A stretch of DNA of 21,721 nucleotides. It comes from a virus. Both the position numbers and the translations under genes were made by a program. Positions 1 to 21,676 of this stretch are shown piece after piece (the stretch's first letter is position 1; the number at the start of each line of letters is the position of its first letter). The notes under the pieces were generated by a model, which was given only the letters and a program-made list of their open reading frames with translations, was not told the origin of the DNA and ran no database searches. Location: the IMG/VR virus record IMGVR_UViG_3300025418_000637, positions 1 through 21,721 of that record, one strand, 5' to 3'.

Positions 1-9
1 CTGGTATAC

Positions 10-366
10 TTAGACTGGCAAGTAAACCGGCTTAAAGCCAAAGACTTCGCACCGGTATAATACACCATGGATCTCAAACTCATCATTGACCATAGATGAC
101 CGGTGGCCAATATAACGGCCAAAATGAGTACGCAGAGGCTGCATTACTTCTACATCGTCACTATAATCTTTATTCTCAAACTCTTCTTCAGAGACGGGAT
201 CAATAAGCATGGGCCCCTTGGACCAAGAACCAAAGACATTTTGAGTACGCTCAAAGGCATATTCCAATGCCGCATCAGTATTCATGCTCGGAAAAGCATC
301 AACATTTGCAATATGCACGCGCCCACCCGAGAGTTCGTCGATATGATAAACTGCCACGATAGCCAT
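10..366 (-). CDS. Hypothetical early protein, 118 aa
   Basis: I do not recognise this protein. It starts with MAIVAVYHIDEL, is acidic in the middle (EEEFENKDYSDD near residues 60-72) and has no membrane segment, signal peptide or catalytic motif that I can see. It looks like a small soluble alpha/beta protein. The ATG at 364-366 is preceded by AAGGA about 8 nt upstream on the minus strand, a good ribosome binding site. A near-consensus sigma70 promoter lies directly upstream (-10 at 397-402, -35 at 420-425), so it should be transcribed early as its own unit. The stop is TAA at 10-12. It is the left-most gene of an early array that probably continues beyond the window. The reading frame is well supported; the function is unknown. 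Confidence 0.8.
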   Translation of the reverse strand: MAIVAVYHIDELSGGRVHIANVDAFPSMNTDAALEYAFERTQNVFGSWSKGPMLIDPVSEEEFENKDYSDDVEVMQPLRTHFGRYIGHRSSMVNDEFEIHGVLYRCEVFGFKPVYLPV

Positions 367-380
367 TAGTTTTTTCCTTG

Positions 381-426
381 TTTCCTTTGATATCCCATCA
401 TACCATGGGAACGAATTAATGTCAAT
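381..426 (-). repeat. Promoter/leader cassette repeat, type A copy 1
   Basis: This 46-bp block matches 626-671 at 42 of 46 positions by direct alignment. It contains promoter P1 and the first part of the leader, including an AAAGGAAA purine run. The promoter and leader have evidently been duplicated as one unit ahead of unrelated genes. Confidence 0.85.
397..425 (-). promoter_or_regulatory. Early sigma70-type promoter P1
   Basis: On the minus strand TTGACA (425-420), a 17-bp spacer and TATGAT (402-397). The -35 is followed by TTAATT, as in all six promoters of this block. It lies about 30 bp upstream of the 118-aa gene. The inverted repeat CCCAT/ATGGG (394-398 and 405-409) brackets the -10 box. 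Confidence 0.85.
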
Positions 427-432
427 CCACTC

Positions 433-612
433 TCAGGCGTCAGCGGCCCGAAGCTGCTGACTCATATGCCGGTATTCATCTCTATAGATCTCAAGATCTT
501 CTTCGAGTTCTTTAATGAGCCTCAGGGCTTTTTCATACTTAGAGGTGTGGAGTACTACCCAACCACTCTGAGTACCACAGTAAGGCTCAAGTAGTTGAAC
601 TATCTTACTCAT
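433..612 (-). CDS. Small early protein, 59 aa
   Basis: A 59-residue ORF reading MSKIVQLLEPYCGTQ at the start and QQLRAADA at the end, with TGA at 433-435. Residues 25-50 (KYEKALRLIKELEEDLEIYR) are strongly charged with a heptad-like pattern, so a short amphipathic helix or coiled coil is likely. A purine-rich site (AAGGGAAA) precedes the ATG at 610-612, and promoter P2 sits 30 bp upstream. This promoter spacing and the filled gap between its neighbours support a real gene despite its size. The family is not recognised. Small early phage proteins of this sort often bind host enzymes, but nothing in the sequence shows a target here. Confidence 0.72.
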   Translation of the reverse strand: MSKIVQLLEPYCGTQSGWVVLHTSKYEKALRLIKELEEDLEIYRDEYRHMSQQLRAADA

Positions 613-625
613 GCCGTTTCCCTTA

Positions 626-671
626 TTTCCTTTGATGTCCCATCATACCATGGGCTGGAATTAATGTCAAT
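626..671 (-). repeat. Promoter/leader cassette repeat, type A copy 2
   Basis: Second copy of the 46-bp type A block (see 381-426). Four differences are visible: one in the leader and three adjacent ones in the spacer. Confidence 0.85.
642..670 (-). promoter_or_regulatory. Early sigma70-type promoter P2
   Basis: Minus-strand TTGACA (670-665), 17-bp spacer, TATGAT (647-642), with TTAATT after the -35. It drives the 59-aa gene. Like P1 it has CCCAT/ATGGG arms around the -10 (639-643 and 650-654). Confidence 0.85.
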
Positions 672-685
672 GGCCTGAGCCAAGG

Positions 686-1516
686 TTACCCATTCTTGAG
701 GCAGGTAACCTTGGCCAGGGACTCGAACCGAGTTGCATTGGCTCGACGAAGCTTAGCAATCTTGAGAACCATACGAAGACTGGTTTCACGAAGACGGTCG
801 AAGTTCTTAATCACGAAGTTCATGACGTCAGACTTCTGTTCTTCAGTGTAGTCATCGAGAAGACCAGCTTTGACGACTTGCTTGATACGGATGAGGTAGT
901 CACGCTTAGTCTTCATGGCGAGATCGATGTAATGGGACCGAGAAACAAGAGCACCGAAGTGAGGTGCAAGCTTGTGACCCTTGTCGATCATTGCATCCAT
1001 GTCGTAGTTGGTAATAAAGATGACAGTACCTTGGAACTGGAAGCGACGAGGAATGATGTCGCCATCTTGGTCCTCAAACTTAGCTTCAGTCATCCAAGAG
1101 ATCATACGCTTGTCAGACGAGTCAGTTGCAGCCTTGATAAGGTTAAGAGACACATCGTCGAAGAAGATGCTGTCGGCATCGTCAAAGACCACGACACAAC
1201 CGGGATGCCTATGCTCATAAAGAGCACGAAGCAGACCAGTAGCACGAACATAGCCCTTGATCTGAGTACTACGGATACCTTCCGGATCATACTCATTCAG
1301 CACTTGCTCGACAGTAAACGACTTGCCGAGACCAGCAGGGCCAGAGACGATGAGACCACGAATGGTACCATCTACTGCGGCATATGCAAGATCGCTGAGA
1401 ACAGTGAAGCGTTCATGCAGCTTAGCTTCGATTTGCTCATCCGTTTCATTAGAGACAGCTTGAGCGAAAGAAGAAACGTTACGAGCTTTGTCACGGTTAT
1501 AAACGCCACGAGGCAT
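686..1516 (-). CDS. AAA-type P-loop ATPase, early
   Basis: A 276-aa nucleotide-binding protein. Walker A is GPAGLGKS (residues 59-66), Walker B is VVVFDDAD (108-115) and a sensor-1 type segment IFITN ends at N170. R193 in the SRSHYIDL segment is a candidate arginine finger, and the C-terminal helical part holds an SLRMV segment near 246-250. This is the AAA/AAA+ layout of a single ATPase core with a short lid. No nuclease, primase or DNA-binding domain is visible, so the substrate is unknown; remodelling or loading on DNA is only a family-level guess. I chose the ATG at 1514-1516 because it has AAGGAC upstream. A longer reading from TTG at 1582 would translate the promoter itself, whose transcript starts near 1547. 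Promoter P3 drives it as a single gene. Confidence 0.88.
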   Translation of the reverse strand: MPRGVYNRDKARNVSSFAQAVSNETDEQIEAKLHERFTVLSDLAYAAVDGTIRGLIVSGPAGLGKSFTVEQVLNEYDPEGIRSTQIKGYVRATGLLRALYEHRHPGCVVVFDDADSIFFDDVSLNLIKAATDSSDKRMISWMTEAKFEDQDGDIIPRRFQFQGTVIFITNYDMDAMIDKGHKLAPHFGALVSRSHYIDLAMKTKRDYLIRIKQVVKAGLLDDYTEEQKSDVMNFVIKNFDRLRETSLRMVLKIAKLRRANATRFESLAKVTCLKNG

Positions 1517-1553
1517 ATTGAGATGTCCTTTGTTTGGTTGGTTTGATAAGGCT

Positions 1554-1582
1554 ATTATATCTGGTAGGCTAATTAATGTCAA
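1554..1582 (-). promoter_or_regulatory. Early sigma70-type promoter P3
   Basis: Minus-strand TTGACA (1582-1577), 17-bp spacer, TATAAT (1559-1554): a full consensus promoter for the ATPase gene. The -35 box also supplies the TGA stop (1581-1579) of the 42-aa gene upstream. Confidence 0.9.
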
Positions 1583-1707
1583 TACCGCGGAGCTAGATGA
1601 TCCACATCAGCTGATCCGACTGACATCATAATCACGACTAAGATAAGCCCAGCTATGGCAAAGATCACAGCTGCAGCCTCAAGGGCAAACCTAATGTAGC
1701 GGTTCAT
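1579..1707 (-). CDS. Small single-helix membrane peptide, 42 aa
   Basis: The ORF starts MNRYIRFALEAAAVIFAI and ends HLAPRY, 42 residues. Residues about 9-29 are a continuous hydrophobic stretch (AAAVIFAIAGLILVVIMM), long enough for one transmembrane helix. Two arginines precede it, so the N terminus is probably cytoplasmic by the positive-inside rule. A strong ribosome binding site (AAAGGAAAAGGAA) lies just upstream and promoter P4 is 28 bp before the ATG. Its TGA stop at 1579-1581 lies inside the -35 hexamer of P3. Not recognised as a named family. A small early inner-membrane peptide could act in superinfection exclusion or membrane modulation, but that is inference only. Confidence 0.72.
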   Translation of the reverse strand: MNRYIRFALEAAAVIFAIAGLILVVIMMSVGSADVDHLAPRY

Positions 1708-1721
1708 GTGGATTCCTTTTC

Positions 1722-1764
1722 CTTTTGTAAGACCATTCTATATGGTAGGCCAATTAATGTCAAT
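1722..1764 (-). repeat. Promoter/leader cassette repeat, type B copy 1
   Basis: 43 bp identical to 2084-2126. It spans the -35, spacer, -10 and first leader bases of promoter P4. Exact identity outside coding sequence points to recent duplication or gene conversion. Confidence 0.9.
1735..1763 (-). promoter_or_regulatory. Early sigma70-type promoter P4
   Basis: Minus-strand TTGACA (1763-1758), 17-bp spacer, TAGAAT (1740-1735). It drives the 42-aa membrane peptide. CCAT/ATGG arms (1733-1736 and 1742-1745) bracket the -10 region. Confidence 0.82.
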
Positions 1765-1768
1765 GGGC

Positions 1769-2071
1769 TCAGACGTAATGAGTCAGATTGTCAAACTCAC
1801 GTCCGGCGGGCCAGGTCCATACAGTATACACAGCTAGCTTAGCCCACACAGCACAATCACGCCGAGTAGTACCAGAGATAGAGTTCCACCGACCAGAAGT
1901 CTTGCCATAGTTATAGCGAGGGCCAACATAAAAAGTCTTGACCTTATACTTCTTGCCAGTGACTTTACTCAGCTTATTCAGCTCAGCCTTAAGTACATCT
2001 CGAGCATAGTCGAGTTTATGGATAGGGATAGGAGTGTAGCCAACTGGAGTTTTGGGAGTGTAATTCTTCAT
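1769..2071 (-). CDS. Hypothetical early protein, 100 aa
   Basis: A basic 100-residue protein beginning MKNYTPKTPVGYTPIPIHK and ending WTWPAGREFDNLTHYV. It is rich in Lys, Tyr and Trp and has a lysine-rich middle (KLSKVTGKKYKVKTFYVG). No membrane segment or known motif is visible. The ATG at 2069-2071 is chosen because GAGGAATGGAAG lies just upstream and because the alternative TTG at 2125 would be inside the -35 box of promoter P5. The TGA stop at 1769-1771 is followed two codons later by an in-frame second TGA formed by the TTGACA of P4. Its composition would suit a nucleic-acid or host-protein binding role, but I cannot assign one. Confidence 0.75.
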   Translation of the reverse strand: MKNYTPKTPVGYTPIPIHKLDYARDVLKAELNKLSKVTGKKYKVKTFYVGPRYNYGKTSGRWNSISGTTRRDCAVWAKLAVYTVWTWPAGREFDNLTHYV

Positions 2072-2083
2072 GCTTCCATTCCT

Positions 2084-2126
2084 CTTTTGTAAGACCATTC
2101 TATATGGTAGGCCAATTAATGTCAAT
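2084..2126 (-). repeat. Promoter/leader cassette repeat, type B copy 2
   Basis: 43 bp identical to 1722-1764, holding promoter P5. See that entry. Confidence 0.9.
2097..2125 (-). promoter_or_regulatory. Early sigma70-type promoter P5
   Basis: Minus-strand TTGACA (2125-2120), 17-bp spacer, TAGAAT (2102-2097). It drives the 100-aa gene. CCAT/ATGG arms lie at 2095-2098 and 2104-2107. The -35 supplies the TGA stop (2124-2122) of the 40-aa gene. Confidence 0.82.
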
Positions 2127-2244
2127 CCGCCTTGTCGTTTTTATGACGAGAATGACGACTGAAGCTGCCCTTTCCCTTTTTAGCCTTAAAGATCAAGGCC
2201 TTATTGGCTTTATGGGCATTCTTGGCTATTGGGTTCTGGCTCAT
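2122..2244 (-). CDS. Small basic peptide, 40 aa
   Basis: The ORF starts MSQNPIAKNAHKANKALIF and ends RHKNDKAD, with the stop TGA (2122-2124) inside the -35 hexamer of promoter P5. It is extremely rich in Lys, His and Arg and has no hydrophobic segment, so nucleic-acid binding is plausible but not shown. Promoter P6 would start the transcript near 2269, leaving a leader of about 25 nt. The ribosome site is weak (GGAA repeats), and a competing 19-codon frame starts at an ATG right at the predicted transcript start. The promoter placement and the exact stop/-35 overlap seen also for the 42-aa gene favour it being real. Confidence 0.6.
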   Translation of the reverse strand: MSQNPIAKNAHKANKALIFKAKKGKGSFSRHSRHKNDKAD

Positions 2245-9828: not shown

Positions 9829-12800
9829 ATGCCTTTACAGACTAACTTCAATGTATCTCCATTTTATGATGATTATAATGCAAATAATAATTATCATAGA
9901 ATTCTGTTTAGACCCGGTATTGCTCTTCAAGCAAGAGAGCTGACCCAGCTTCAAACTATTCTTCAAAATCAAATTGAAAGATTTGGTGATAATATCTTCG
10001 TTGAAGGTACTATTATTCAAGGGTGTACATTTAATTATGACCCTAATTACTATTATGTAAAGTTACCAGATCTCATGGTAAATGGTGCACCAACATTAGC
10101 ATCAGCATATGTTGGTTGGACTGCAGTTGACCCAGCATCTAATCTTCAAGCTATTGTAATTAATTCAAGAATTGGATATGAAACTCAAGCTCCATTCTTG
10201 AATACAATTTATGTAAAGTATATCAATAGCGGTGTATATGCTAATGGTACACAAGTTCAGCAATTTGCTAATAATACTATTCTTAAGTTCTATGCCGGTT
10301 CATATAATTCTGGTAACACTGCAAATTATCAAAGCTTTTATGATACTGCATTAGCCGGAGATCAAAATGGCCAGCTTAACGGTGTTGATGTATTCCCAAC
10401 TGGTACAGGTTATGCATTCTCAGTAAGCGATGGTATTATCTTCCAAAAAGGACATTTTGTTCGTGTTCCAAATAATACCAGTGTAGTAGTCAGTGCTTAT
10501 ACTAACTATCCAAACAATGTGTCTGTAGGCTTTGTTACAGATGAAAATATTATTACAGAATTAAACGATCAATCATTATTAGATAATGCTGCAGGTTATA
10601 CTAATGCTAATGCTCCAGGTGCATGGCGTCTTCAACTTATGCCAAGACTTGTAGTATCACAAACAGATACTATTCCTGCAAATAACTTCCTTTCATTAGT
10701 AAGATTTGAAGACGGTAATGCTGTAAAGGTAAATCAAACTACACAGTATAATGTTCTTGGTGATGAACTTGCTCGTCGGGAATATGAAACCAGCGGCGAC
10801 TTCGTAGTAAATCCATTTACAGTAAGTACTGAGCAATATACTACAAATACATCTTATTTTAAAGCTGTTGTAAGTTCTGGTCTTGCATACATTGATGGAT
10901 ATAGAGTTGAGCAAAAGAATTCATCAAGACTCGGTGTACGTAAAGGTCTTGACACTAAGACTTTAAATGGTCAAACAGCAAGTACTCGTTATGGAAATTA
11001 TGTAAGAGCTAATGAGTTTGTTGGACAATTTAAGATTGGATCTAAAGTATACTTATATGATACTGCAACACAGGCTCTTACAAATGATATTTTTGCACCA
11101 AATCCAACAGGAAATGTAATTGGTACAGCTACTGTTATTTCATTAGCATATGAAACCGGTGTAATTGATACAAACACTGCAATATATGATATCTATCTAA
11201 AAGATATCACTATGAATAGTGGAAGAAACTTTACAGATGTAAGATCTGTTTTTGCTAATACTTCAGGTGGAGCAAATACTGCTCTTGCTGATCTTGTATT
11301 AGAATATAATATTACAAAGCAAGCAAATGTTGCAGTTATTAAAGACGCAACATTTAGTAGTCTTGTATTTCCAACTGGTAAAGCTGCAGTACAAACAATT
11401 CAATCTAATGCATTGTTTGTTTATAAAACAAGCAGCACAGTTCAATTTAATACTTCCGGTCTGGCAAATCTTCCAATTCTGACTTCTGGTAAGATTTATG
11501 ATTATGGAGTTGGTACATTATCGGCTGCTGAAGAAGCATCTATTATTATTGTTCCTTATAATACAACTAATGTATCTACAACAACTGGTACAGCTTCAAC
11601 CAATACTTCATCTAATCAAGTAAATGGTTCTGGAACATCATTCCTTTCGCAATATCAGATTGGTGATTACATTATTGTTGGAAATGATTATAGAAGAATT
11701 ACGAATATTGCTAATAACACTGCACTATTTGTTGATAGTAATTGGCCAGCTATAAATTCTGGTCAATCACATAATAAGTGTTATCCAGCATATATTCCTA
11801 TCAATATTACTGATAGAAATTCTATTGTTACACTTGCAAATTCAACATCGATGTCAGTACAACTAAAGTCTGCAGCGGGTTCTGCTGAAACATTTGCAGT
11901 TGGTCCAAATACTGAAATTTATTATAATGTATCACAACAAACTGGTGCAACACCTAAGACAGTTAATACAACTATAGTTTGTATTGATACTGCTTATAAT
12001 CTTGCATTAAATGGAACAGTAAATGTTTCTTCTACATCAGCTAGTGTAACAGGTGCAAATACTAAATTTAGTTCATATATTCTTCCAGGATATAAGTTAT
12101 ACCTTGCAAATAATAACTCAAACAGTGCATTTATTGGTACAGTTGCTAATGTTGCAAATGATACAGCATTAACGCTTACAAGCAATGCTTCTTATACTGG
12201 AACTAATCAGAATATTATATACAGTGCTAATAATTCTCGTGGCCCGGCCGGTCCTTGGCCTCTTGGATTCCCAGATGCTTATAATCTATTAGCAGTTTAT
12301 AGAACTAGTGCAAATCAAGGGTTCACAGTATCGCCTGAATATAATGTATCCGGATCATTTGCAATTCAAACAAATCAGACTGATACTACATATAATATTT
12401 CAAATCTTATTTTAAGTCCTACAAGTAGCTTACAGCTTAATAACGGTGATAAGCTTACCGTTGTGTATAGAGTGTTTAGACCAACATCAACCCAGCCTGG
12501 ATTCTTTACAGTAGATTCTTATCCAATTGATGACGCAAACACTGCTAATACTATAGCAATTACAACTGATACTATTCCAACATATACTACATCGTTAGGA
12601 AAGACTCTTGCATTAAGAGACTCTATTGATTTTAGAGAATATGTATCTAATACAGTTCCTCTTTTTGCAAATCTTTCTCAAGCAGTAGCTGCTAGTGCTG
12701 GAATTAATCCTTCAGATAATACTACATTAACTGCACAAGCATTTGTAACACCAAATCAAGTGTTTACATACAATGTTACATACTATCTGCCAAGACAAGA

Positions 12801-14325
12801 TAAGATCTTCTTAAATGGTGCAGGAAGCTTAAGTATTGTTGAGGGAATATCTTCTGATAATCCAGTTCCTCCTGCAGATCAACCAACATCTATGACTTTG
12901 GCTACACTTTCAATTAGTCCATATCCTACATTACTTCCTAAGTTTACAAGTAAAAATAATATTACAGTACCAAAGGTTGTATCAGTATCTGCACAAACAC
13001 GCAGATATACTATGTCTGATATTGATAAGCTCAATAAGAGAATTACAAGCTTAGAATATTATTCATCTTTATCATTACTTGAACAGTCAACAACTGCTTT
13101 AAACATTCAAAGTTCATTAACTGGACTAAATGTTTATAAGAATGGCATCTTTGTTGATAATTTCAATGATACTACTGGAGCAAATTTAACTGATAAAGAA
13201 TACTTTGTTTCTAGAGATGCAACAGAATCTTCACTGATTCCTGCATTCGAAGAAAGAATTTATGACTTCATGTATGATCCAAATGAAAATAATGGAAATG
13301 GATTATACGCAGCATCAGGTGATCTTGTAACTCTTCCATATAATGAAGCAGTATTATTAACTCAACAATCAGCAACAAGAACAAGAAATTGTACAGCCGG
13401 TTTCTATAATTGGGTAGGTACTCTCAAGACTGCACCTACATATGATAACTTCATCGATGTTCGTGTAAACTCTGTAGTAACTACAATCAATAATATTAGT
13501 AATATCACAAATAATACATATAATAACATTACTAATATTACTAATGATACTACAAACAATACATATAACAATACTACTAACAATATTAGCAATATCACAA
13601 ATATTACTCAAAGTGCAGCAGCTTCTACTTCTAATCCAGTATCGGCCGGTGCAGCTAATCCAGGTGTAGTATTCCCACTACCAACAAAAACTGGAAATAA
13701 CGGTATTGTTTCAGGCGGTGTAACAAATAATAGCGGAACTCCACCTACAGTTCCTTCAGGTACTGCAATAACAACTATTGTAGCATCTCCACCAATTCTT
13801 AGTACATCTGTTAGCGATCCATCAGTAGATACTACAGTTGGAGGATATGATATAACTGTTCCTGATAGTTATACTTCGTATGTTCCTGGAGATTCTGGAC
13901 AAGGAACTACAATAGATCTTAATGCAATTGATTCTGCATTAGCCGGATTACCAGATATAGCATCGTCTGTATTGGATTCTATTCCATCAGTAAATACACC
14001 AAATACACCAACAGATACTACACCAATTTCAGTATCTAGTAGTACGCAAGGAGATATTGCATCTTTAATTGATACAGTTGCTATAGATTCATCATCTCAA
14101 ATTACACCAACAGATACTGGAAGCGTTTCAACATCTATAACAACAGATCCATTAGCAGCAAGATTAAGTGATACAAACTTTAATGGTCCTACAAATATTA
14201 CATATGATACTCAAACACAAGGTATCGATGCAGAATATAATCTTGATGGAGGAGCTATTGGGTTCGGAGGCGGAGGAGGCGAATTCCTTGCTCTTGGTTT
14301 AGATGACATGACAAAGAATTATTAA
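9829..14325 (+). CDS. Giant virion structural protein, DUF4815 type
   Basis: 1498 aa. The opening (NFNVSPFYDDYNANNNYHRI, then FRPGIALQARELTQLQTILQ) is the signature of DUF4815 virion proteins known from cyanophages and related T4-like phages. Residues ~1060-1150 (SDIDKLNKRITSLEYYSSLS, later LNVYKNGIFVDNFND) form a second conserved block of this group. Two copies of a ~70-residue module occur (587-640 and 729-798). Residues ~1219-1261 are an Asn/Thr/Ile repeat (NITNNTYNN type), followed by a Ser/Thr/Pro-rich region and a glycine-rich tail (GFGGGGGEF near 1480). It is probably a trimeric or extended baseplate-peripheral or fibre-attachment protein, because it follows gene 8. The exact T4 counterpart is unclear; gp9 and gp10 positions are equivalent by order only. 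GAGGA precedes the ATG. Confidence 0.82.
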   Translation: MPLQTNFNVSPFYDDYNANNNYHRILFRPGIALQARELTQLQTILQNQIERFGDNIFVEGTIIQGCTFNYDPNYYYVKLPDLMVNGAPTLASAYVGWTAVDPASNLQAIVINSRIGYETQAPFLNTIYVKYINSGVYANGTQVQQFANNTILKFYAGSYNSGNTANYQSFYDTALAGDQNGQLNGVDVFPTGTGYAFSVSDGIIFQKGHFVRVPNNTSVVVSAYTNYPNNVSVGFVTDENIITELNDQSLLDNAAGYTNANAPGAWRLQLMPRLVVSQTDTIPANNFLSLVRFEDGNAVKVNQTTQYNVLGDELARREYETSGDFVVNPFTVSTEQYTTNTSYFKAVVSSGLAYIDGYRVEQKNSSRLGVRKGLDTKTLNGQTASTRYGNYVRANEFVGQFKIGSKVYLYDTATQALTNDIFAPNPTGNVIGTATVISLAYETGVIDTNTAIYDIYLKDITMNSGRNFTDVRSVFANTSGGANTALADLVLEYNITKQANVAVIKDATFSSLVFPTGKAAVQTIQSNALFVYKTSSTVQFNTSGLANLPILTSGKIYDYGVGTLSAAEEASIIIVPYNTTNVSTTTGTASTNTSSNQVNGSGTSFLSQYQIGDYIIVGNDYRRITNIANNTALFVDSNWPAINSGQSHNKCYPAYIPINITDRNSIVTLANSTSMSVQLKSAAGSAETFAVGPNTEIYYNVSQQTGATPKTVNTTIVCIDTAYNLALNGTVNVSSTSASVTGANTKFSSYILPGYKLYLANNNSNSAFIGTVANVANDTALTLTSNASYTGTNQNIIYSANNSRGPAGPWPLGFPDAYNLLAVYRTSANQGFTVSPEYNVSGSFAIQTNQTDTTYNISNLILSPTSSLQLNNGDKLTVVYRVFRPTSTQPGFFTVDSYPIDDANTANTIAITTDTIPTYTTSLGKTLALRDSIDFREYVSNTVPLFANLSQAVAASAGINPSDNTTLTAQAFVTPNQVFTYNVTYYLPRQDKIFLNGAGSLSIVEGISSDNPVPPADQPTSMTLATLSISPYPTLLPKFTSKNNITVPKVVSVSAQTRRYTMSDIDKLNKRITSLEYYSSLSLLEQSTTALNIQSSLTGLNVYKNGIFVDNFNDTTGANLTDKEYFVSRDATESSLIPAFEERIYDFMYDPNENNGNGLYAASGDLVTLPYNEAVLLTQQSATRTRNCTAGFYNWVGTLKTAPTYDNFIDVRVNSVVTTINNISNITNNTYNNITNITNDTTNNTYNNTTNNISNITNITQSAAASTSNPVSAGAANPGVVFPLPTKTGNNGIVSGGVTNNSGTPPTVPSGTAITTIVASPPILSTSVSDPSVDTTVGGYDITVPDSYTSYVPGDSGQGTTIDLNAIDSALAGLPDIASSVLDSIPSVNTPNTPTDTTPISVSSSTQGDIASLIDTVAIDSSSQITPTDTGSVSTSITTDPLAARLSDTNFNGPTNITYDTQTQGIDAEYNLDGGAIGFGGGGGEFLALGLDDMTKNY
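13483..13611 (+). repeat. Asn/Thr/Ile coding repeat
   Basis: Degenerate short tandem repeats built from AATATTA, ATCACAAAT and ACATATAAT units, encoding N-I-T-N and N-N-T-Y-N type motifs within the 1498-aa protein. Similar polar N/T runs are found in other phage fibre proteins, where they join domains. Confidence 0.75.
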
Positions 14326-17610: not shown

Positions 17611-17773
17611 AAAGCCATCTGACAAGAAAAATAATTTTAATCCTTTTGATACACGTGATAGTCGAGCAGTTGCTATTGATTCTACATTAAATAAGATATT
17701 AGAATTAAAACAAGATATTGAAAATATGAAAAGAGAGATTAATAGTATCGTGGAGAATAGATTTAATGGCTAA
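17600..17773 (+). CDS. Small coiled-coil protein, 57 aa
   Basis: A short ORF reading MLSKKPSDKKNNFNPFDTRD at the start and NSIVENRFNG at the end. The first 20 residues are basic and probably disordered. Residues ~28-52 (STLNKILELKQDIENMKREI) form a clear heptad-type helix. The ATG is preceded by GAGG about 10 nt upstream. It overlaps the preceding gene by 11 bp and the following gene by 8 bp, fully bridging the interval between them, which argues for a genuine gene. It may pair with the 70-aa protein through the helices. No known family. Confidence 0.78.
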   Translation: MLSKKPSDKKNNFNPFDTRDSRAVAIDSTLNKILELKQDIENMKREINSIVENRFNG

Positions 17774-18608
17774 ATATTATGCAAATATTCAACCCGAATT
17801 TGATACATTCGGAGTTTGGATTGCCAAGACTAATAATCTACTCAACGATATATCAACTATTGTTATTACTGTAGATGGAACAACCGACGGTGCAGTAACA
17901 ACAGGTAATGCCTTTGTCAATGGATCTCTTGGTGCAACTACATTAGTAGTTAATACTGCAATCAGAGGTGGAAACGGTTCTGTTTCCGGTATATTAGCTG
18001 TAGCATCAAATACTTTATTCCAATACAATGTAAATGTTGCTGGTGTTTTATCGGCAAATATTGCAACAATCAATAGCGCTAATGTTGGAAATCTTCAAGT
18101 TGGATTTTTAACAGCTAATATTGCAAATGTTGCTACACTTATTGCAAATACTGCAACTATTAATACATTAAATGTATCAACTCTTAATGTAACTGGATCT
18201 TCAGCAGCATTTAATGTACCTGTAAGCTTTAATGCTAATGTAAGCATGAATAACAATTATTTGACCAATGTATCCTTTAAAGGATATAATGAGTTCTTAA
18301 ATAATGTTTCATCAGCATCAGGTACAGTTACATTAGATCTTGCTGCTTCAAACTTCTTTGTTCTAAATCTTGTTGGAAATGTTACATTAGCATTTAATAA
18401 TGCTCCTTCTGGTAAGGCTGAAACCTTTACTATAATTGCGATTCAAGATGGTACTGGTGGTCGTACTATTTCTTGGCCTTCTGGAACCAAGTATGCTGGT
18501 GGAGTAGTTCCACCACAAACAACTGCAGCAAATGCAATTGATGTTTGGACAGTATTAACCTTTAATGGACTGAATATAGCATCACTATCTGTCAAGAACG
18601 CGAGTTAA
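17766..18608 (+). CDS. Tail-fibre-like structural protein, 280 aa
   Basis: The N terminus (MAKYYANIQPEFDTFGVWIA) is followed by a serine/alanine/asparagine-rich shaft. Residues ~95-145 repeat an A-x-I-x-T-L-N-V pattern (for example TATINTLNVSTLNVTG) that suggests a repetitive beta or trimeric coiled structure. The C-terminal ~110 residues (GNVTLAFNNAPSGKAETFTI, later DGTGGRTISWPSG and VWTVLTFNGLNI) resemble a small beta domain found at the end of many phage fibre proteins. GGAG upstream of the ATG gives a usable ribosome site, and the start overlaps the 57-aa gene by 8 bp. It may be a short tail fibre or a connector to the adhesin encoded next. The fibre class is well supported by composition; its exact role is not. 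Confidence 0.75.
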   Translation: MAKYYANIQPEFDTFGVWIAKTNNLLNDISTIVITVDGTTDGAVTTGNAFVNGSLGATTLVVNTAIRGGNGSVSGILAVASNTLFQYNVNVAGVLSANIATINSANVGNLQVGFLTANIANVATLIANTATINTLNVSTLNVTGSSAAFNVPVSFNANVSMNNNYLTNVSFKGYNEFLNNVSSASGTVTLDLAASNFFVLNLVGNVTLAFNNAPSGKAETFTIIAIQDGTGGRTISWPSGTKYAGGVVPPQTTAANAIDVWTVLTFNGLNIASLSVKNAS

Positions 18609-18611
18609 AAT

Positions 18612-20390
18612 ATGCCTGTATCTGGTGGCGATTATGGTTTAGAAAAAACATGGAGAGCTTCTGGAATAGGTACAGTTACATTTAATTCTCCAGGTAATTT
18701 TACTATTCCATATGGTAAAAACTTAATCTCATTCTATGGTCAAGGTGGAGTTGGTGGAAACTCTACACCTAACTATTCAGTATCACCAGGTGCTGCTACA
18801 GCATATAGCACTACAGGTGGAAATATTTCTACTTATAACACAGTTCCTGGATCAGCTAATTACTCTATAGTGCCAGGAACTATAAGCGGATATAATACAA
18901 CTCCTGGTAATAATCCAGCTTCGTATAATACTACAGGTGGAAATATAGCAGCATACAATACTGTTCCAGGTAATCCTGCTTCTTATTATGTTTCAGGAGG
19001 AACTGTTGCTTCATATAGTACGGTTCCTGGAAGCGTAGCTTCATACTATGTTGCTGGAGGTACGCCTTCCACATATGCTGTTTCTTATCCAAACTATGCT
19101 TATATTAGTCAGATCACATCAAATATTCCATCATCAACAGGAATTAATTTGACTAATGGAGCAAGCAGCGATCACTTAGCTGGCTGGTATCTTAATAGAC
19201 ACGGAACAGATTATTATTATGCTGATCAGGGACCATATAATACAAGTAATGGTGCAACTAATGGTCAAATTTGTCAAGCTAATGCTCCATTTAATGGTGA
19301 CGTAAACCCATCTTGCGCTCTTGGATTAGTAGTAAGATATCAACAATTTATTAGTACTTATTGCTTAGGTGGAGCAACATGGCCAACTGCATATCTTGAG
19401 CATCAAACACAAAGCGGCGGTTGGACTTTCTTTGGATATAATGTTACATACGTTGCTGGAGCAAGACCAACTGGATACGCAAGTATTGGTGCAATATTAG
19501 CAGGTGATGCATTTGCAGCTGCAATACTTCCTTATATTATTAATGCTGCTATTCCATCAGGTGGAGCACAAAATACATTACTTAATAGATTAAAAACATA
19601 TACTTGGACTTCTGGAAACATTGCTTCAAACTTCGCAGACTTTGCAGCATATGCAGGAAGCCTAGCTGGTGGTCAACCTGCTACATATAATCCACCAACA
19701 ACATATGTTACTTCTATTTTAGAACGTCATCATCATACTGTATCTGGATTTACTACAGTATATGTTGGTGGATACAACCCACCAACAGTATTATATGGAA
19801 CTTGTCCAGCTTATGTGCTTAATGCTAATGGATGGACTACAGCTTACTTATGTACTACTGGTCCAGGAACAGTTGCTTCATATAATCCAATAGCATATAC
19901 TGTAACATCATATAATACTCTTTCATATCCAGTTGGAAGTTATAATCCTCCAGCATATCCGGTAGCATCATATAATCCTCTGTCATATCCAGTTGCTTCT
20001 TCTAATCCTACTACATATCCTATATCAGCTTATAATACAATATTATATCCTACAGCATCATATAATGCTCCTACATACGCAATTGCTGGATATAATTCAC
20101 CATCATATACAATTTCTGCATATAATTCTCCAGCCTATCCAGCAGCAACTTATAATACAATATTACATCCGGTAACTGCATATGCTCCTCCAACATATCC
20201 TATAGCTGGGTATAATGTTGGTGGAAATGGAGGAATATCTTCAGCATTTGGTGTTACAATGCCTGGAGGAATTGGTGGATACGCACCAGTTATTTCAACA
20301 AGTTATATAAATCCATATGTATATCCAGATAATACTACGTATCCTATAACCGTTGCTCCTGGTGGAGTAGTAGTTATAAAATCTGAATAA
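18612..20390 (+). CDS. Decapeptide-repeat tail adhesin candidate, 592 aa
   Basis: The first ~50 residues (GTVTFNSPGNFTIPYGKNLI, then FYGQGGVGG) and the last ~60 (GGNGGISSAFGVTM to TYPITVAPGGVVVIKSE) together resemble one glycine-rich phage tail domain split in two. Inserted between are two arrays with a strict 10-residue period, residues 61-160 and 421-535, with consensus xxASYNTxPG and VASYNPPxYP. They flank a core (161-420) with Cys at 221, 235, 251, 398 and 414, HHH at 373-375 and many aromatic residues. This is probably a receptor-binding fibre or tip protein, made late. It begins 3 bp after the 280-aa gene. The tyrosine-rich decapeptide repeat is one I do not recognise from a named family. 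Confidence 0.72.
   Translation: MPVSGGDYGLEKTWRASGIGTVTFNSPGNFTIPYGKNLISFYGQGGVGGNSTPNYSVSPGAATAYSTTGGNISTYNTVPGSANYSIVPGTISGYNTTPGNNPASYNTTGGNIAAYNTVPGNPASYYVSGGTVASYSTVPGSVASYYVAGGTPSTYAVSYPNYAYISQITSNIPSSTGINLTNGASSDHLAGWYLNRHGTDYYYADQGPYNTSNGATNGQICQANAPFNGDVNPSCALGLVVRYQQFISTYCLGGATWPTAYLEHQTQSGGWTFFGYNVTYVAGARPTGYASIGAILAGDAFAAAILPYIINAAIPSGGAQNTLLNRLKTYTWTSGNIASNFADFAAYAGSLAGGQPATYNPPTTYVTSILERHHHTVSGFTTVYVGGYNPPTVLYGTCPAYVLNANGWTTAYLCTTGPGTVASYNPIAYTVTSYNTLSYPVGSYNPPAYPVASYNPLSYPVASSNPTTYPISAYNTILYPTASYNAPTYAIAGYNSPSYTISAYNSPAYPAATYNTILHPVTAYAPPTYPIAGYNVGGNGGISSAFGVTMPGGIGGYAPVISTSYINPYVYPDNTTYPITVAPGGVVVIKSE
18792..19091 (+). repeat. 30-bp coding repeat array, N-side
   Basis: Ten degenerate 30-bp units, each encoding a decapeptide with Tyr at position 5 and usually PG or GG at positions 9-10 (residues 61-160 of the 592-aa protein). 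The frame and length are constant; the DNA differs mainly at third codon positions. Confidence 0.85.
19872..20216 (+). repeat. 30-bp coding repeat array, C-side
   Basis: About eleven and a half 30-bp units encoding decapeptides with YN at positions 4-5 and YP at 9-10 (residues 421-535). It has the same period as the N-side array with a different end motif, proline in place of glycine. Confidence 0.85.
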
Positions 20391-20399
20391 GGTAAGTAA

Positions 20400-21014
20400 A
20401 TGAGCGCGCAATTTACAACATACATAGGTACATATAATAGAGAACACGAACACGGTATCAATATAGATGACACCAATAAAAAGTCATCTAATGTGCTGTA
20501 TATTGGATTTGATGGTGATCCTAAACTTACATTTAAAGTTCAAAGAGATGATCCAAATCAATTAAAAGAATTTGATAGACTTATAGATGTATGCTTAAAA
20601 TCAAAAGATTCTTTTGAATATGAAATTCCAGATAATAATACGTTAATCATAAAAGCAGATTTTGGAAATCAACCAAATAATACATGGTTAAATGTAAATG
20701 ATACTTGGGTATCAAATAGTTTACCATACACAATAACTACATATAAAGAAGATTTTTGTGTATCAATCTTAGATATCACAGAATCAGATCCAATCTTAAA
20801 TGTAAAATATTGCAGATTAAGTAATGGAAATATTACATATTCATCTTCAAATAATAAAGATGTGTTTGTAATAGGTATGAAATATACTATAAATGGAAAT
20901 ACATATTATAATAGTAATCACCATAGAGCTATGAAAGAATTTGCTAATACTAATTTAGACATAACACTTTCCACTGAAGATCTATGTTTTGTAGCAGTTA
21001 TAGAATATAAATGA
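20400..21014 (+). CDS. Hypothetical protein, 204 aa
   Basis: I do not recognise this protein. It starts MSAQFTTYIGTYNREHEHGI, lacks a signal peptide or membrane segment, and alternates beta-like stretches (VLYIGFDGDPKLTFKV, DVFVIGMKYTINGNTYYN) with charged loops. It reads as a single beta-rich soluble domain, unlike the low-complexity fibres upstream. AAGG lies 7-8 nt before the ATG. It overlaps the sulfotransferase-like gene by 4 bp (ATGA), so the two are likely translated together. That link suggests either an accessory virion component such as a fibre cap or chaperone, or a partner of the modification enzyme. Neither can be shown from sequence. Confidence 0.75.
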   Translation: MSAQFTTYIGTYNREHEHGINIDDTNKKSSNVLYIGFDGDPKLTFKVQRDDPNQLKEFDRLIDVCLKSKDSFEYEIPDNNTLIIKADFGNQPNNTWLNVNDTWVSNSLPYTITTYKEDFCVSILDITESDPILNVKYCRLSNGNITYSSSNNKDVFVIGMKYTINGNTYYNSNHHRAMKEFANTNLDITLSTEDLCFVAVIEYK

Positions 21015-21676
21015 TAATACATGAAAAAAGTAAAGTTGCAATACTGTTAAATCCAAAAACAGGATCTACTACACTTTGTGATATTTTTCAAAAGTATGAT
21101 GTTGATGTTTGCATACACGATCATAAAACTTTAACAGATTTTAGAGAAGAATATTCAGATCATTCTGAATATAAAATTTATTCATTCTATAGAGAACCTA
21201 TAGAAAGATTTAAGTCTGCATATAATACAGCACTTAGCTTACACAATCATAGAACATTTAGATTTATTCTTTTAAAGAATGTATCTAAAAAATCAATATC
21301 AATGTATGATGTGGCTAAACCTATTTCAGAAGAAAATATTGAATATCTAAAAAACATATCTCCATATGAAATGCTTACGGCTTTAAACACTGAAGATATT
21401 AATAAGATAAGATCATTTACTCCATTATTTGCAAATCAAATACAATGGATAGATGATTCAGTAACAACACTAAACTTTGAAAACTTTGAGTCAGAAGTAA
21501 AAATGCTTATTGAAACCTGCGGATTTGATTCATCAAATCTAAAAAAGATTCCAAAACTGAATAAATCTACAGATATATATAACTATAGAAGATTTACAAA
21601 AGCTGATAAACAAGCTATCAAAAAGTTCTATAAAGAAGATTATAAATTTTTTGAATCTAAAAATATCATTTTTTAA
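21011..21676 (+). CDS. Sulfotransferase-like protein, 221 aa
   Basis: Residues 15-21 (PKTGSTT) form the 5'-phosphosulfate loop of PAPS-dependent sulfotransferases. Residues 57-72 (YSFYREPIERFKSAYN) form the 3'-phosphate motif, with R61 and S69 as the expected binding residues. H36 and H38 in CIHDHKT are candidates for the catalytic base. This fits the membrane-type carbohydrate sulfotransferase fold (Sulfotransfer_2 or _3), although the protein is short and has no membrane anchor. The likely reaction is transfer of sulfate from PAPS to a glycan or protein hydroxyl; the acceptor is unknown. The start overlaps the preceding stop as ATGA and no ribosome site is evident, so coupling is likely. 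A different P-loop kinase-like role cannot be excluded. Confidence 0.75.
   Translation: MIIHEKSKVAILLNPKTGSTTLCDIFQKYDVDVCIHDHKTLTDFREEYSDHSEYKIYSFYREPIERFKSAYNTALSLHNHRTFRFILLKNVSKKSISMYDVAKPISEENIEYLKNISPYEMLTALNTEDINKIRSFTPLFANQIQWIDDSVTTLNFENFESEVKMLIETCGFDSSNLKKIPKLNKSTDIYNYRRFTKADKQAIKKFYKEDYKFFESKNIIF

Follow-up and report, generated by a model that had tools for sequence, protein, structure and literature searches.

The described systems closest to the protein presented here are T4 gp37, gp38 of phage S16 and gp24 of the myocyanophage Pam3. In T4 gp37, domain D11 is inserted within the collar domain D10: its stem consists of residues 882–931 and 960–1009, 50 each, the needle contains seven iron sites with His ligands, and the tip, residues 932–959, binds LPS and OmpC (PMC6957217). 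Phage S16 caps its fibre with a separate tip protein, gp38, which combines conserved attachment tryptophans with five hypervariable distal loops and features ten short glycine motifs (PDB 6F45; PMC6851490). Pam3 gp24 comprises a TNF-like plus glycine-rich domain, i.e. a beta domain with glycine-rich loops, an N-terminal helical domain for baseplate docking, and six loops (PMC9608196). Here, we describe a gene whose product is likely a fibre-tip adhesin of an uncultured T4-like phage, in which paired repeat arms would form an out-and-back stalk that carries an exchangeable head.

The gene lies in the window (the whole stretch of DNA that was analysed, 21,721 bases long and recorded in IMG/VR), which carries a T4-type baseplate operon with gp25-like (PF04965, phrog_261), gp6-like (phrog_219) and further wedge genes identified by Pfam and PHROG search. 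The closest relative of the gp6-like protein (42%) is found in Caulobacter phage Cr30; the inspected genes adjoining the Cr30 fibre gene include no such adhesin. At the beginning of the window (1–2200), the GC content is ~46% versus 33% elsewhere, and an AAA ATPase gene (686–1582, minus strand; phrog_1250, E 1.6e-81) is divergent to the baseplate operon; this region may be a mosaic block or an assembly joint. Asn/Thr-rich short repeats (NNISNITNNTYNN) occur at 13480–13607, within the gene at 9829–14325. A tail-fibre gene (17766–18608, plus strand; phrog_9017, E 1.5e-10) is separated by a 3-base gap from the adhesin gene P0001 (18612–20390, plus strand), whose open reading frame of 592 aa was confirmed as listed. 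The next gene (20400–21014) has no family match, and a similar-sized gene (381–980) is found at the matching place in L004, a truncated relative. Also near the adhesin, 21011–21676 weakly matches phrog_3347, a galactose-3-O-sulfotransferase (E 1.7e-6), and the downstream side of the adhesin in another relative, L008 (8389–12000), features a 2OG-Fe(II) oxygenase, a DUF6065 protein and a glycosyltransferase-methyltransferase fusion.

The adhesin can be divided into six parts, all on the plus strand. An N-terminal tail (aa 1–19; 18612–18668) contains a conserved KTW motif, present in every relative that has an N-terminus, and lies outside the confident base strands (pLDDT 55–65). It is followed by the N-terminal half of a base domain (aa 20–48; 18669–18755), which is conserved in the family and predicted with a pLDDT of 85–96 over aa 21–50; arm 1 (aa 49–160; 18756–19091) with 11 units of ~10 residues, from Y55 to Y155; a variable head (aa 161–420; 19092–19871), for which no homologue was found; arm 2 (aa 421–535; 19872–20216) with 12 units of exactly 10 residues, from Y424 to Y534; and the likewise conserved C-terminal half of the base (aa 536–592, FGVTMPGGIGG...YPDNTTYPITVAPGG; 20217–20387), with a pLDDT of ~80–93 over most of its length. 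Searches of this protein against Pfam, PHROG and NCBIfam gave zero matches, a PDB match was absent, and 50,697 phage records contained no credible relative. The earlier note, made from the sequence alone, knew of no named family with this layout, and these searches named none; a full-length match to a characterised fibre family was likewise not found in Pfam, PHROG or the PDB.

The two arrays are visible in the DNA as well, with a period of 30 nt. In the protein, 8 of 13 Tyr in aa 61–160 and 11 of 21 in aa 421–535 share one 10-residue phase, exceeding every one of 20,000 shuffles (maxima 7 and 8, respectively). In array 2, Tyr recurs every 10 residues from 424 to 534, with Ser replacing it at 464. 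Array 1 begins at Y55, one unit before the start first assigned to it, and continues with Tyr at 65, 75, 84, 94, 105 and 115...155, so that one 9-residue and one 11-residue step cancel each other. Because of these compensating steps, the original description of an exact 10-residue register without a single slip was wrong for array 1; it holds for array 2, apart from the identity of residue 464. A search for His-coordinated iron sites along the stem found a single His (519) in the arms.

But where else does such a protein occur? An exact DNA pattern for array 1 retrieved nothing, a pattern for array 2 led to L004, and stepwise-built alignments led to L008 and L009–L037. This search for the repeats in other phages, which the earlier note had proposed, recovered nine further distinct full-length relatives from IMG/VR: L008 (= L023 = L037), L009 (with ten identical loci), L019, L020, L024, L025 with its near-twin L026 (counted once), L027, L032 and L034 (= L033 = L035), in addition to the fragments L004, L022, L028 and L030. 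The distinct full-length proteins are 279–649 aa long, and all share an N-terminal base (~50 aa), two arms, a head and a C-terminal base (~55 aa). The proposal of two arms bracketing a variable core in a split base thus extends to nine more members, with matched unit counts and variation concentrated in the head. The adhesin family is real, coherent and so far unnamed. Cultured phages searched with the family base segments yielded nothing. In a separate search, tblastn matches in Listeria phages were dismissed as composition artefacts, as their frame is opposite to annotated genes and partly intergenic. L038 (Omnitrophota) is a different protein that has only the stretch EKTWRATG in common with the family.

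The genomic position of the adhesin is conserved, too. The C-terminal ~125 residues of the window's fibre protein are common to the genes upstream of the relatives (41–58% identity, 8 other loci), and the adhesin directly follows the fibre gene, with a gap of −1 to 16 nt, in nine of ten loci with an untruncated start besides L032, the window included. An upstream gene with the fibre C-terminal domain ends at most 16 bases away in the window, in eight full-length loci and in the fragment L022, while in L032 an oxygenase-like gene lies between fibre gene and adhesin.

In the comparison of core and repeat number among relatives suggested earlier, the heads proved variable and the arm counts matched. 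We analysed ten proteins, the window and its nine relatives, with L025 and L026 taken as one. Each unit has an aromatic residue as its anchor, and the residue after it is usually Asn. The units were counted by hand, with an uncertainty of one unit at the head border, giving 11/12 in the window, 22/22 in L009, 18/18 in L020, 13/14 in L019, 15/16 in L024, 14/15 in L027, 18/19 in L025, 13/13 in L034, 9/9 in L008 and 2/2 in L032. The counts of the two arms are within one of each other in all ten proteins, while ranging from 2 to 22 across them. The summed arm differences amount to 5 versus a permutation mean of 58, a sum as low as observed being reached in 0 of 200,000 permutations of these family members, which are not independent of one another, in 48 of 200,000 with one protein per clade, and still in only 530 of 200,000 with automatic unit counts, which overrun into Tyr-rich heads. 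When the arm boundaries were set independently, by self-similarity, arm lengths correlated with r = 0.98; L008 (92/137) fits worst owing to a blurred head border. Unit length varies from ~8 residues in L025 to 10–11 in L009, L019, L020 and the window and 19, with two aromatics, in L034, and within one protein, the two arms may be unlike in both sequence and length of the unit: in L024 and L027, units of arm 1 have 10 residues and those of arm 2 mostly 11–12, with counts differing by one only.

Could such arrays be disordered or simple spacers, which grow and shrink by slippage and reach similar lengths through shared repeat dynamics? Their composition is of low complexity, their predicted confidence is low, and several members are one unit unequal; however, the counts match despite differing arm sequence and unit length, and in the close relatives L009, L019 and L020, whose largest flanking matches are 85–92% identical, both arms have changed together. 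The unit spacings of L008 argue against spacers as well: read from the base outwards, the two arms agree in 7 of 8 steps, versus 2 of 8 when un-mirrored. We therefore regard the spacer explanation as very unlikely. The matched counts, the mirrored spacings of L008 and the single 13-residue step adjoining the head in each arm of L034 fit arms that would run antiparallel.

The head is the least constant part of the protein. In the window, Cys 221, 235, 251, 398 and 414 and an HHH motif at 373–375 are located in aa 161–420, where a core with these features had been noted before; an antibody chain in the PDB matched this head (E 0.0087), which was dismissed as chance. Across the family, head length ranges from 10 to 260 aa. 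The heads of L034, L025 and L032 have ~43–77 residues and two Cys each, that of L008 has ~205 residues and carries DUF4214, and those of L009, L019, L020, L024 and L027 have only 10–18 aa and lack Cys altogether. One could propose that the conserved functional core of the family resides in a metal-binding Cys/His head, with the arms as mere linkers, for which the residues in the window head and the Cys pairs in L025, L032 and L034 would speak, yet five Cys-free heads and a DUF4214 head leave this explanation with hardly any credibility. As the Cys/His core is particular to the window member, a conserved metal site is, judged by these sequences, unlikely to be the essence of the family. All 12 Cys are located in heads, and charged residues plus His make up 1.1% of the arms versus ~9% of head and base (9.3% of heads). 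Over 10,590 positions, the near-identical contigs L025 and L026 show 43 differences. Of these, 41 fall in the head (at L025 8642–8825), in a stretch of 187 nt, while the remaining 10,403 nt account for 2, with the reservation that the two accessions are neighbouring metagenomes and that either contig could be a strain chimera. The affected head codons comprise 20 synonymous and 9 nonsynonymous ones with every kind of base change. A diversity-generating retroelement was rejected for this head, as the changes are not adenine-directed and 20 codons are synonymous; from the base changes, an exchange of the head allele looks like the better fit.

How might the arms be built? In AlphaFold2 monomers, in which an oligomer cannot show, the strands of either base half are predicted confidently, and each arm unit receives a single short strand at low confidence (pLDDT ~45–65; pTM 0.34 and 0.40), while the window head was not resolved. 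Polyproline/glycine-like arms, as envisaged in the earlier note, find no support in these low-confidence models. A fold search against the PDB and viral models gave nothing significant (best E 5.7e-3), and weak matches to beta-solenoids and jelly rolls were discarded as below significance. An alternative would be a tip adhesin of the glycine-rich kind represented by Pam3 gp24 and S16 gp38: the base would be a beta domain with loops extended into long Pro/Gly/Tyr motifs that pack as a polyglycine- or polyproline-II lattice, the head would be one enlarged loop, and arm counts would match since lattice layers must fill. The N-terminal base segment of the family can be aligned to a simple glycine-rich protein from a different phage, itself downstream of a fibre gene (hhalign E 1.2e-6), and the C-terminal segment does so weakly (E 0.004); this comparison involves a single protein with an FNxxGxFTxPxG-type N-terminus and names no Pfam family. 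The earlier idea of a split glycine-rich base draws support from the N-terminal alignment, with the C-terminal match weak. The gene order is also as in gp37-gp38, and the units of array 1 are rich in PG/GG. However, array 2 and the arms of L025 contain little Gly, the predicted short strands, even at low confidence, do not resemble an extended coil, and solved structures lack a sequence match, the family profile giving 0 matches against all PDB chains at E<=10. We consider a glycine-rich lattice unlikely, though clearly less so than spacer arrays.

We favour the out-and-back stalk as the likely explanation, with the product binding the receptor from the tip of a T4-type tail fibre. Its N-terminal tail, which bears the KTW motif, may dock onto the end of the fibre encoded by the preceding gene, and the N- and C-terminal halves, both confidently predicted, may join into one beta base domain. 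From this base, the chain would leave along arm 1, build the exchangeable head and come back along arm 2, the antiparallel arms forming a stalk of matched height. As the arms match in the number of units rather than of residues, every unit probably contributes a constant rise, for example as a single strand in a beta stack. The head is predicted to bear the receptor-binding surface and to be replaceable while stalk and base stay. More tentatively, we would like to propose that this unnamed family equips T4-like environmental phages with a stalk of adjustable length: a single chain would supply two repeat rows, often unlike each other yet kept at matching numbers, in which every unit forms a short beta strand, and the head would be swapped as a cassette, a module possibly unseen in solved fibres. 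If the out-and-back reading is right, one gene encodes reach, in its arm units, and specificity, in its head, as distinct parts that can be read separately, making host-range variation of uncultured phages readable from metagenomes. The matched-arm rule would then yield a precise prediction about the structure of a repeat type without solved relative, and the reading would also point to the 10–260 residues expected to contact the host in a protein that is otherwise of low complexity.

Finally, we place this adhesin into the context of the systems introduced above. In phages of the S16 type, the gp38 gene comes after the fibre gene. The family shares this order with gp38, as well as hypervariable distal segments and a conserved N-terminal Trp, here in KTW, that may serve attachment; however, it features two long regular arms and one head instead of ten glycine-rich motifs in a PGII lattice, and its profile has no PDB match. 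With Pam3 gp24, it shares by analogy a beta base bearing long loops with a variable distal end, but neither the helical docking domain and six loops nor any sequence match. With T4 gp37 D10-D11, it shares the layout of a split base, two equal stem stretches and an inserted tip, seen here at sequence level (11/12 units in the window). The T4 needle bears iron and does not consist of short repeated units; the window arms contain one His, the family head may reach 260 residues, its gene is separate from the fibre gene, and no sequence match to gp37 was detectable. As the layout is that of T4 gp37 while sequence and iron sites differ, the adhesin would, by analogy, work like these known systems while being filed in none of their families.
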